A stretch of DNA of 42,138 nucleotides from NCBI GenBank assembly GCA_016208465.1, contig JACQXZ010000019.1, forward strand, positions 1 through 42,138, written 5' to 3'. The translations under genes were made by a program, and so were the position numbers. The notes beneath the pieces are model-generated. The model was not told the origin of the DNA. It saw nothing but the letters and a program-made list of their open reading frames with translations, and ran no database searches. This document shows positions 2,134-40,680 of the stretch, piece after piece. The stretch is from Actinomycetota bacterium. Its GTDB lineage: Bacteria; Actinomycetota; Aquicultoria; JACQXZ01. Position 1 is the first letter of the stretch. Every line of letters begins with the position of its first letter.

Positions 2134-3508
2134 GGTTCTTTCTTAAAAAAGTTGGAATCTTCTCGGATTTAAAAGCCCGCAATGTTGATGTATTTTTAGT
2201 CTGAAATAATCAATATCTTTATAACCATAAGCCATTCGTTTCAGTCGTTTAATTTTGTTGTTAAATCCTTCTGAATTCTCTTTTTAAACCAATTTAATAT
2301 ATACTCAGTTTTATCTTTTACACTTTCAGCTAATTCTTGAAATATCTTCAGTGAACTTTCTTCTGCCTGTTTTACCCAGCTTTTTATTTGTATTTCCGCC
2401 TGTTTGATATCTGCACTTTCATAAATTTGCAGAAAGCTTTCTTTTAACAGCATTGCCTGATATATTGGTTCATTTACTTCACATAATCTTTTTAATGTTA
2501 CAGCCTGTCTTTCTGTTAAATTGCTTCTTTTTTTTAATAATACAAATCTCTGTTTGCAGCCAGCTAATTCAACAAATTCTGCATCCTTAATATTTCTCGC
2601 TTTTTTTAATTCATCTTTTCTTACTTGATCTAATGCTCTATTAATTTTTTGTACAGCATGAAATCTATCCAATACTATAAGAGCTTTAACTGCATATTTT
2701 TTTGTTGAACTTATGTACGTTCTGGCTCCATCAAGCGCCACTGATTCTAAATTAGAACATTTGTTTCTGCCTAAAGATTCATAATATTTATCAAGCGCTT
2801 CGGCTTTTCTTCCTTTTGCGTTCCACGTGATAATTTTTTCATCTGCATCAATCACATTAGTAAGATATCTGTGATATTTCCTGTAACTGACCTCGTCTAC
2901 GCTTATATTTACTGATCCGGGTGTTGGCTCAAGTTTTACTTTTGATAATTCATCCAGAATCATTTTATCTATACGATATATCTTTTCATCATCCAGCCCT
3001 AAATACCAGCCGGCTTCTTTATTTGTCGTTATTGCTGTCAGCCTGTTGACTTCGTGCGCAAATCTCTTTGTTACTCGTTCCCATTTTCCTATCCAACTAA
3101 TTGCTTCAGTTTTTATTTTTGCACTCTCAGCACACTTATATTTTCTTTTAGGAATATGTAAAAATATTCGACGTTCTCCCATTCTTAGATCTTCAGCTAT
3201 TGTTATATCAGTACTGTGATAACCTTTTGTATGAATTTTTCCGCATTCACTGCATACTGCGTTATTATTTTTATATGGCGCTAATTTAATATGTATTTCT
3301 TTATCTGTTATTGAAACAATTTTTTCTACTTTATATTCTGGAATATTTAACAATTTGCTGATAGTATATTTGCATAACATCGACTGCCTCCTGGTTTGTT
3401 ATTTTTCTCAATTTAACTATACCAGATTACTTGGTAGTCGATGTTTCTATTTATTCCTTTATTTACAATGCTTTACAAGTTTTTATCCAACTTATTTACG
3501 AATGACCC
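2134..3508 (-). mobile_element. ISL3-family insertion sequence (1,375 bp)
   Basis: The ends were set from the 8-bp target duplication and imperfect terminal inverted repeats of about 25 bp. The left end begins GGTTCTTTCTTAAAAAAG and the right end, read inward, begins GGGTCATTCGTAAATAAG. Both continue with TTGGA. A single ISL3-type transposase gene fills the element. The insertion splits a small cassette gene. The transposase is frameshifted near its C-terminus, so this copy is probably inactive, although the ends and duplication are still crisp, implying a fairly recent arrival. Confidence 0.85.
2143..3380 (-). pseudogene. ISL3-family transposase, frameshifted near the C-terminus
   Basis: An N-terminal zinc-finger region (CSECGKIHTKGYH near residues 39-51) is followed by the DDE_Tnp_ISL3 domain. 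The catalytic region includes NISVDEVSYRKYH near residue 160 and LDRFHAVQKINRALDQVRKD near residue 238. The frame beginning at ATG 3380 stops early at 2241 after KDLTTKLND. Changing frame by one base in an A5 run near 2283 gives the expected ending, with EGFNNKIKRLKRMAYGYKD and CGLLNPRRFQLF, then TAA at 2143-2145. One lost A explains this. Sequencing error in the homopolymer is the alternative. Confidence 0.85.
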
Positions 3509-4814: not shown

Positions 4815-4930
4815 TACAAAATTGTAAAATGAAAATTGTAAATATTAAATTTTAAATTGTTCATTTTCTTTTTCCTTTATTTGACTTGCTTAATCATTCA
4901 TTTTACAATTTCCAATCTTCAATTTACAAT
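4815..4930. repeat. AT-rich inverted repeat filling a gene-less cassette
   Basis: The left half (ACAAAATTGTAAAATGAAAA...) and right half (CATTTTACAATTTCC...TTTACAATG) are imperfect inverted copies. This is the style of the other dispersed AT-rich repeats that border four-helix-bundle elements in this window. Together with the leader palindrome it makes up the whole cassette between attC sites B and C; no convincing gene is present. Confidence 0.5.
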
Positions 4931-4951
4931 GCGACATTCGCAGAATGTCGC
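4931..4951. repeat. Cassette-leader palindrome (copy 2)
   Basis: GCGACATTC (4931-4939), loop GCA, GAATGTCGC (4943-4951): perfect 9-bp stem directly abutting the R'' box of site C. It matches the leader at 3855-3897. Confidence 0.55.
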
Positions 4952-12821: not shown

Positions 12822-12875
12822 TGTTCTTTTTCCTTCCCTGCTGTTTTTTTATATTTAAGTTGAGACAATTAGATT

Positions 12876-12967
12876 TTAGAAATCAAAAATTATCACAAAT
12901 GAAATTTAGAAAAATTTTTACATTTTAATCTGTCATTTTAATTTTTGACTTTTTATTTTTAATTTTG
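12876..12967. repeat. Short AT-rich inverted repeat (S23-element end type)
   Basis: The right side, read on the minus strand, is AAAATTAAAAATAAAAAGTC followed by AAAAATTAAAATGACA. It is nearly identical to the start of the degraded element at 23812. The left side (AAATCAAAAATTATCAC) is a shorter inverted match. It looks like an internally deleted element of about 90 bp between scpA and scpB. Confidence 0.5.
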
Positions 12968-18371: not shown

Positions 18372-18564
18372 TAGAAATAGTTAACAAAAAGGGTCAAGTG
18401 AAATTTTAAGTTCAAATGTCAAAGCTCAAAGTTCAAATGAAATCCAAAGTTTAAATGACCAAAACTTTTAATAATTTGGATTTTGTCATTCATTTGACAT
18501 TTTGATTTTGTCATTTGAACTTTCTAAATATTTACACTTGAATCCTTGACCCCTTGAATCCTTC
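18372..18564. repeat. Nested inverted repeats downstream of the pyrimidine phosphorylase
   Basis: The outer pair is AAGGGTCAAGTGAAA at the left and CACTTGAATCCTTGACCCC at the right (18535 onward). The inner pair is AAGTTCAAATGTCAAAGCTC (from about 18410) and the inverted TGTCATTTGAACTT (to about 18522). The centre (TTTTAATAATTTGG) has no gene. It looks like one repeat element inserted into another. Confidence 0.55.
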
Positions 18565-19909: not shown

Positions 19910-20107
19910 AAAATTAAGTGAAAAATTGAACAATAAAGTTCAAATGTCAAAGTTCAAATGTCAAATGAATGTCAAAACTCAAAGTTCAAAGTGTTAATTT
20001 TTTAATAATTTAGGCTTTGGATTTTATTTGAACTTTGGATTTTGTAATTTGAACTTATCTTTTAAATTTCACTTGAATCCTTGAATCCTCGACCCCTTGA
20101 ATCCTCC
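19910..20107. repeat. Nested inverted repeats between dxs and the pyrimidine phosphorylase
   Basis: Same architecture as 18372-18564. The inner copies are AAGTTCAAATGTCAAAGTTC (19937 onward) and, inverted, TTTGAACTTTGG...TTTGAACTT (20024-20055). The outer end is CACTTGAATCCTTGAATCCT...CCCCTTGAATCC (20070-20107). No gene between. Confidence 0.55.
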
Positions 20108-23811: not shown

Positions 23812-24001
23812 AAATTAAAAATAAAAAGTCAAAAATTAAAATGACAAATCAAAATTCAAAAATAAACTCAAAAGACCGTAGATTCTTTAAGAAAAAGATA
23901 GCTAAATAATTAATTTCTTGCATATTTACTTTGAAAGACAGGAAATAATTTTTTCATTTTAATATGTATTTTTGATTTTTTATCTTTAATTTTTAATTTT
24001 T
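23812..24001 (+). mobile_element. Deletion derivative of an S23 four-helix-bundle element
   Basis: The left end (AAATTAAAAATAAAAAGTCA...) and inverted right end (TTTTTGATTTTTTATCTTTA...) match the ends of the intact element at 35447-35883. On the plus strand the first gene codons remain (NDKSKFKNKLKR from about 23840) and so do the last codons (TLKDRK, then TAA 23946-23948). The middle is almost wholly deleted. No functional gene is left in this 330-bp gap. Confidence 0.6.
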
Positions 24002-33965: not shown

Positions 33966-34179
33966 AAAATCAAAAATCAAAAATTAAAGATTAAAATGAC
34001 AAATTAAAATTCAAAAATGAATACCGAAGAGATCTTAAGTCGAAGATATGAGGTCTAAAAGTGGATCCATACGACCTACGACCTTGACCTATAACTTTAT
34101 TAGCTACTTGAATTTTGCATTATAATTTTTTCATTTTGATATGTACTTTTGATTTTTTATCTTTTATTTTTGATTTCTT
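33966..34179 (+). mobile_element. Deletion derivative of an S23 four-helix-bundle element
   Basis: The left end (TTTTAAAATCAAAAATCAAA...ATGACAAATTAAAATTC) and inverted right end (TTTTCATTTTGATATGTACT..GATTTTTTATCTTTT) match the intact element at 35447-35883. The plus-strand start of the gene survives for about 17 codons (NDKLKFKNEYRRDLKSKI, then TGA), and about 80 bases of unrelated or diverged sequence follow. No functional gene is left in the aroK-aroC gap. Confidence 0.6.
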
Positions 34180-35371: not shown

Positions 35372-35446
35372 GCTTATCCTCTTTCGTATTTAAGTTGAAA
35401 CAATCTGAATATAGAAATGTGAACATACCTTCTGTCGCAGAATCAA

Positions 35447-35883
35447 AAATCAAAGATAAAAAATCAAAAATACATATTAAAATGAAAAATTACTTCCTGC
35501 CCTTCAAAGTAAGTATGCTGGAAGCTAATATGTTAGCTATCTCTGTTGTTTCCTTTAAGAGTTTATTGGTCTTATCTTTATCAAACTTACCAGAGTCTCT
35601 TAATAACCCTAACCAAAACTTGCTTTCATTGGCTGATTTTAAAGCATAATTAAAGAAATTGATATAATCTTTTTTGGAACAAGCTGAATTGGCTTCAACT
35701 ACATTAGCTCCAACACTGGTAGCGCTCCGAAGTAATTGATTGCCGATAATCTCACAGGTCTTCTCTTTTGGTAATTCATCGACAAGCTTAATTATCTCAA
35801 GAGCAAATTTATAAATTCGTCTTTTGAACTCATCTTTGAATTTTAATTTGTCATTTTGCATTTTGATTTTTTATCTTTGATTT
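35447..35883 (-). mobile_element. Intact S23 four-helix-bundle element with 23-bp terminal inverted repeats
   Basis: Perfect 23-base inverted repeats (AAATCAAAGATAAAAAATCA plus AAA) lie at 35447-35469 and 35861-35883. They enclose one gene whose ATG coincides with the inner edge of the right repeat. Total 437 bp. Two plus-strand deletion derivatives (23812-24001, 33966-34179) and a short relic (12876-12967) share the ends. Confidence 0.75.
35490..35861 (-). CDS. Four-helix-bundle (S23 / TIGR02436) protein
   Basis: 123 residues. The family pattern is visible: FALEIIKLVDELPKEKTCEI, then IGNQLLRSATSVGANVVEAN, KKDYINFFNYALKSANESKF with WLGLLRD, and the last helix ETTEIANILASSILTLKGRK. These proteins form four-helix bundles (some pentameric) and were first seen in intervening sequences of 23S rRNA; relatives act as accessory proteins of diversity-generating retroelements. 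Function is unresolved. No reverse transcriptase is nearby. The start ATG 35861 falls at the end of the element's inverted repeat. The gene appears intact, unlike the copies elsewhere in the window. Confidence 0.85.
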   Translation of the reverse strand: MQNDKLKFKDEFKRRIYKFALEIIKLVDELPKEKTCEIIGNQLLRSATSVGANVVEANSACSKKDYINFFNYALKSANESKFWLGLLRDSGKFDKDKTNKLLKETTEIANILASSILTLKGRK

Positions 35884-35943
35884 AGTTCCGGATTAATCAA
35901 CTTTTTTATGAAAGAACCTAATTAGTTTGTTAAGCTACCAATT

Positions 35944-40489: not shown

Positions 40490-40680
40490 AGGATTCAAGG
40501 GGTCGAGGATTCAAGGATTCAAGTGAAAAGTCGAGAGCAGTTCACAGTTGATAGTTGACAGTTTAAATTATTACCTACTGTCTACTACCGTATCAACCTT
40601 TTTCAATCGTAACCCTGCATTTTTCCTAACTTCCTATCTTCCTTACGTCTCACACCTTACGTTTTACGCCTTACGGGGGT
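40490..40680. repeat. Composite repeats between the two PilX-like genes
   Basis: AGGATTCAAGGGGTCGAGGA...TTCAAGTG (40490-40525) is the solo end of the 14780-type element. It is followed by GTTCACAGTTGATAGTTGAC and, near 40632, CCTTACGTCTCACACCTTAC..TTTTACGCCTTACG. All are short dispersed-repeat styles; no gene is present. Confidence 0.5.

Follow-up and report, generated by a model that had tools for sequence, protein, structure and literature searches.

Intervening sequences (IVSs) with an S23p open reading frame (ORF) occur sporadically in the 23S rRNA genes of Coxiella, Leptospira and Brucella, where one S23 gene lies between ends that can pair, over about 430-540 bp (PMC4990558). In Coxiella, GACAGAT heptamers precede the S23 ORF, and cutting by RNase III at heptamers was shown for this 23S rRNA member (PMC4990558). 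No function has yet been assigned to S23 proteins (PMC4990558, PMC11270868), and the presence of S23 genes in cas loci was noted earlier, with the repeats not mentioned (PMC3936711). Separately, heptad arrays have been found in cyanobacteria, Bacteroidetes, Xanthomonas and Geobacter; their source is not known. For a TAACTGA array, horizontal spread seemed likely to the authors but "no mechanism is evident" (PMC4679880), GGGGATT/GGGAATC are further orphan heptads, GGGGATT being the Nostoc repeat (PMC4692102), and paired heptamer and octamer sites of Geobacter were taken as regulator sites (PMC2700814). In the accessible parts of these reports and of those on the cyanobacterial STRRs, the arrays resemble the elements described below in being tandem, intergenic and patchy across phyla, with some paired on opposite strands. 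The same parts explain orphan heptads by regulators, slippage or G-quadruplexes and yielded no mention of S23 (PMC4679880, PMC4692102, PMC2700814, cyanobacterial STRR). A literature search reaching few subscription journals returned no publication on a general link between heptads and S23.

The window, i.e., the whole stretch of 42,138 nucleotides analysed here, comes from contig C11 of an Actinomycetota genome (G000; 1.75 Mb, 89.5% complete). It contains an S23 gene and arms that probably belong to a widespread family of minimal mobile hairpin elements, in which S23 would recognise the heptads that flank its gene. The features of the window were as follows:

35490-35861, minus strand: S23/23S_rRNA_IVP four-helix-bundle gene, 123 aa (PF05635 profile, structure model, dN/dS)
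35835-35883, minus strand: 5' heptad arm (gene sense), period-7 array and inverted repeat, including the end 35861-35883 and overlapping the start codon
35436-35491, minus strand: 3' heptad arm, period-7 array and inverted repeat, including the end 35447-35469
35897-35918, minus strand: outer inverted repeat, 5' side, GGTTCTTTCATAAAAAAGTTGA, recurring in other subfamily A copies and L078
35377-35399, minus strand: outer inverted repeat, 3' side, TTCAACTTAAATACGAAAGAGGA, directly before the aroC start, recurring in other subfamily A copies and L078
23812-23999, plus strand: gene-less deletion derivative of subfamily A, antisense to its neighbours (paired ends, subfamily grouping)
33967-34176, plus strand: gene-less element of subfamily B with the same ends but an unrelated core, antisense to its neighbours
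12867-12964, minus strand: degenerate relic with paired ends (inverted repeat; end-motif match at 12943-12965)
4819-4931, no strand assigned: heptad hairpin with an AATTGTA-type unit (period-7 array)
18408-18522, no strand assigned: heptad hairpin with a AAAGTTCAAATG-type unit, as beside the G000 S23 gene L002 (period-7 array)
19923-20069, no strand assigned: heptad hairpin with an L002-like unit (AAAGTTCAAATG type; period-7 array)

The ORF at 35490-35861, upstream of aroC, matched the S23/IVP family PF05635 with an E value of 1.7e-23 (83.3 bits against a curated cut-off of 33.8), and the ends at 35447-35469 and 35861-35883 were perfectly complementary over 23 bp, in agreement with the preliminary description of an S23 gene with perfect inverted ends at 35447-35883. 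That description had also treated these ends as one terminal inverted repeat (TIR) of a single family. A unique transposon TIR was rejected, as the ends are embedded in 45-nt arms that are 78% complementary and consist of 7-bp units of the AAATCAA type; they are heptad arrays within a larger element and exemplify a rule that applies to S23 genes generally. Outside them, at about 35377-35399 and 35897-35918, lies an imperfect inverted repeat that was found again in other subfamily A copies and at the Nitrospirota locus L078, and because the similarity extends to this repeat, the window element probably spans about 35377-35918. In the predicted RNA fold the arms paired (z -4.1), placing the S23 ORF in a loop between paired ends as in 23S IVSs. 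The window element, however, sits between protein genes, outside any 23S rRNA gene, and no Rfam match was found in the window. Such positions between protein genes, the many unrelated heptad units, the dozens of copies and the gene-less derivatives distinguish the present elements from the 23S IVSs. The 3' outer end occupies the expected ribosome-binding site of the downstream gene (35372-35385, GAGGA before the aroC start), as it does at C16:34300 of G000; the element may therefore supply this site.

The S23 proteins were under strong purifying selection (dN/dS roughly 0 to 0.1), with a value of about 0.07 between the window gene and its nearest relatives (dN 0.07 and dS 1.04 against L078). 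Residues Q42, S49, N53, E56 and E79 were invariant over 28 diverse members. A monomer model of the window S23 (pLDDT 95) matched the solved S23 structures 2RLD (38% identity, TM 0.8-0.9) and 2GSC, and the protein is predicted to share the four-helix bundle fold of the solved PF05635 members; the title of the 2GSC paper speaks of five four-helix bundles. After the S23 structures, the next match was Avd of diversity-generating retroelements (DGRs), alone and in complex with reverse transcriptase (RT) (4DWL, 8UB7; TM about 0.7-0.8). The likeness to Avd lies in the four-helix bundle, whereas the identity is 13% and neither an RT nor a template or variable repeat is linked to the S23 element; the one RT match in G000 lay on contig C14, a different contig from that of the window. 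No recognised nuclease domain was found in the window S23 by profile search.

Association with inverted heptads extended well beyond this locus. Other S23 genes of G000 had inverted arrays of further heptads on either side, e.g., ACAGACA, GTCACAA and GTGAATG. The inverted-repeat score differed between 70 S23 genes, drawn from the window's class and other phyla, and 215 other genes (p=3e-19), a conservative comparison, since the controls include genes adjoining the elements, and one that, like the other statistics here, concerns related S23 genes and not independent observations. Period 7 was raised on both sides of the S23 genes in the same comparison. With 7 S23 genes from cyanobacterial plasmids included, the best period was 7 in 48 of 77 5' arms and 50 of 77 3' arms, versus 1 of 77 shuffled arms, with a median of 4.9 copies per heptad arm. 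When one gene was taken from each of 33 protein clades separated at <50% identity, its two arms were more complementary to each other than to the arms of other clades (p=9e-13). Heptad units differ between S23 lineages, and arm complementarity is kept. The similarity of arms tracked that of the proteins: arms resembled each other in 100% of the pairs with >75% protein identity and in about 1% of those with <50%. The unit is lineage-specific, yet S23 relatives from different phyla and domains have it in common. Some flanking arrays had a period of 8-9; a clear inverted array was absent from a minority of the S23 genes.

Units of published orphan arrays were among those found. TAACTGA is the unit beside the S23 genes L091 and L092 of Tenacibaculum, and CCCCAAT, which up to phase corresponds to the reverse complement of the Nostoc repeat GGGGATT, lies next to S23 on a plasmid of Planktothrix. 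The link gives both partners a role, with S23 as a candidate protein that recognises and spreads the arrays, and the S23 hairpin package could be the source of this common class of bacterial repeats. S23 genes were also found among tRNA genes and within a 23S rRNA gene; the latter case (L067), from the window's class, obeys the heptad rule. The best reading is that 23S IVSs are rRNA-inserted members of the S23 hairpin family, which makes them one branch of a common mobile family and no longer a curiosity. At L067 (G027:C44), a single 23S rRNA gene carries both the S23 element and a group I intron.

Within G000, the end motif (at most 3 mismatches) had 106 matches, compared with 6 for a reversed-pattern control. 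Pairing of these matches gave 35 elements of 111-437 bp; one contained the S23 gene, and the other 34, of 111-317 bp, were gene-less. When elements up to 700 bp were inspected, S23 was the sole gene seen between these ends. These elements share with MITEs of DNA transposons their short length, terminal inverted repeats and many dispersed gene-less copies; no target site duplication was evident by eye in the flanks, where the exact element ends are uncertain. Grouping by internal sequence produced subfamilies of 15 (A, including the S23 copy) and 13 (B) and smaller groups, with shared cores up to 95% identical among dispersed elements. Two elements on different contigs (C1:19864 and C56:28850) share, at 95% identity over 150 bp, a nested second hairpin built of a different unit, which indicates that derivatives dispersed after forming. 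On these data, the short elements are extremely unlikely to be ordinary terminators or AT-rich repeats arisen by chance. The window unit is indeed AT-rich, and shortened derivative sequences folded no better than shuffles, although partial sequences make this say little; both the motif count and the shared cores contradict such an origin, and GC-rich units in other genomes follow the same rule.

The preliminary description had listed two plus-strand deletion derivatives of the S23 gene and a relic in the window, and the paired ends were recovered as inverted repeats in all three. The copy at 23812-23999 is a deletion derivative, because it belongs to the subfamily of the S23 copy and keeps both gene ends. 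The same origin was rejected for 33967-34176, which shares the ends only; no S23 sequence was found in the core of the 13 subfamily B copies to which it belongs. Period-7 arrays numbered 11 in the window, all intergenic and none coding, while each other period from 4 to 12 gave 0-3 arrays. A CAGTTGA-type heptad array lies at 40537-40573, and its inverted partner is absent from the same intergenic region.

Relatives of the window S23 with 72-85% identity were found in Nitrospirota, Nitrospinota, Chloroflexota, Brocadia and an archaeal Methanophagales genome, and in most cases the ends matched those of the window element; none occurred on viral contigs or in phage records. Empty sites were sought in Tenacibaculum, where the fadB-fadA junction was compared across 36 genomes of this genus. 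It measured 3-7 nt in 15 genomes and 27 nt in 2; another 10 had 68-119 nt, in nearly every case a heptad hairpin, with several units among them, and 9 had 432-540 nt with an S23 element inside. The states were interspersed on the tree of the flanking genes, and the sister pairs G110/G108 and G107/G104 differed in state. The S23 elements of G104 and G108 were identical at 474 of 475 positions, with flanks of 89-90% identity; the two also share about 20 nt of the adjoining fadB, and the sister of each has a short hairpin there. This represents a recent between-species transfer into the same site, which could reflect a homing process or short-tract homologous recombination, the latter requiring no dedicated mechanism. 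The comparison of empty sites proposed in the preliminary description has here revealed empty, short-hairpin and S23-element states. These, the dispersal in G000 and the cross-phylum relatives with the same ends bear out its view of a mobile family with pairable ends and MITE-like remnants, and neither of the contrary outcomes it had named, genes that never move or ends unrelated between copies, was encountered.

Host slippage and template switching might instead make and equalise the arms, with S23 as a separate selfish or regulatory gene that tolerates them and with exchange by ordinary recombination. In favour of this view, inserts in several Tenacibaculum species open with a nearly inverted copy of the final bases of fadB, close relatives have arms of different units at the same site, and slippage has already been proposed for heptads. 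We nevertheless regard this as quite improbable: the units travel with the S23 lineage across phyla, dispersed subfamilies have whole cores in common, and the junction is only 3-7 nt when empty, yet in different species it is occupied by S23 types that are only 37-56% identical. The inverted copies of the last fadB bases read TTCGCAAC TA GTTGCGAA in G069 and CGCAATT AAA AATTGCG in G076 and hint at template switching at the insert edge. Many S23 loci look vertically inherited (L069/L071/L072/L074 and pairs of cyanobacterial plasmids). Similar S23 copies on such paired plasmids were dropped as evidence of movement; they share neighbours and are thus orthologous and uninformative.

In the mobile hairpin reading that we prefer, a complete element would be one S23 gene between inverted, mostly heptanucleotide arrays, and gene-less derivatives would retain the arrays and disperse. 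We infer that S23, whose solved relatives form rings of five four-helix bundles, recognises the heptads flanking its own gene, as RNA or as hairpin DNA, perhaps with one heptad repeat per subunit. S23 would bring the element to intergenic junctions, which mostly separate co-transcribed genes, and host or resident enzymes would join the strands. In transcripts the arms could pair, and RNase III could cut the element out, by analogy with the rRNA member, so that insertions would be nearly harmless. More tentatively, and with somewhat less than even confidence, S23 and its heptad hairpin may constitute a distinct mobile class of bacteria and archaea, in which a pentameric four-helix-bundle protein reads heptads one per subunit, comparable to the reading of triplets by the TRAP ring, and spreads the element without a transposase of its own, and of which most orphan heptads are gene-less descendants.

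The sense bias and the Avd-like fold favour RNA as the moving form, antisense copies and RT-less CPR genomes DNA. With neighbours defined as open frames and not as curated genes, S23 genes with both neighbours on one strand were sense in 51 cases and antisense in none, and the elements of G000 were sense in 22 and antisense in 4 (21 and 4 without the gene copy). Ordinary operon genes are also mostly co-directional, so the bias of the gene-less copies is more telling than that of the S23 genes. Four S23 copies on cyanobacterial plasmids were antisense, and the sense rule is therefore not absolute. As a special case of the preferred reading, an Avd-like S23 might bind the hairpin RNA, which a resident RT copies back by retrohoming in trans. 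Such a route, which we consider possible though rather unlikely, would suit both sense biases, the match to Avd alone and in its RT complex, the presence of one RT in the window genome and the about 20 nt of fadB that travelled with the G104/G108 element, as flanked cDNA would carry. It is weakened by the four antisense plasmid copies, by the co-directionality of ordinary genes and by two CPR genomes, with small assemblies, that have 6 and 4 S23 matches and no RT match.

Alternatively, the inverted arms could fold as single-stranded DNA or cruciforms during replication, and S23 and host enzymes could join the hairpin to a new site. REP/REPIN sequences with RAYT transposases are comparable: there, as here, short hairpin copies are far more numerous than the gene on which they would rely, but the present elements have no Y1 transposase and end in tandem heptads whose sequences are many and unrelated. 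The ratio of 34 gene-less hairpins to one gene copy in G000, the antisense copies and the RT-less genomes with S23 genes fit movement as DNA, which we also judge rather unlikely: the 21 to 4 sense bias of gene-less copies would have to be explained separately, no recognised nuclease domain is present in S23, and the outer and inner repeats define no single conserved cleavage site.

Several further loci were noted. On cyanobacterial plasmids, S23 genes lie between cas2 and cas1 (antisense) or between cas6 and cas4 (sense) (L197, L198 and L244), with heptad arrays around those whose surroundings were seen; such inserts agree with the earlier report on cas loci (PMC3936711). A putative ISL3-type transposase ORF, named by sequence reading, occupies positions 2241-3380 of the window on the minus strand, with no sign of ends shared with the hairpin elements. 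In a Tenacibaculum genome, two related S23 copies are about 1.7 kb apart (G127:C1:3607512-3609552). Finally, the window holds three octamer arrays of the TTGAATCC/TTGACCCC type or its complement (18535-18563, 20068-20105 and 40490-40523), which probably form a further element family with period 8; their unit is close to that beside the S23 gene L115 of another phylum.
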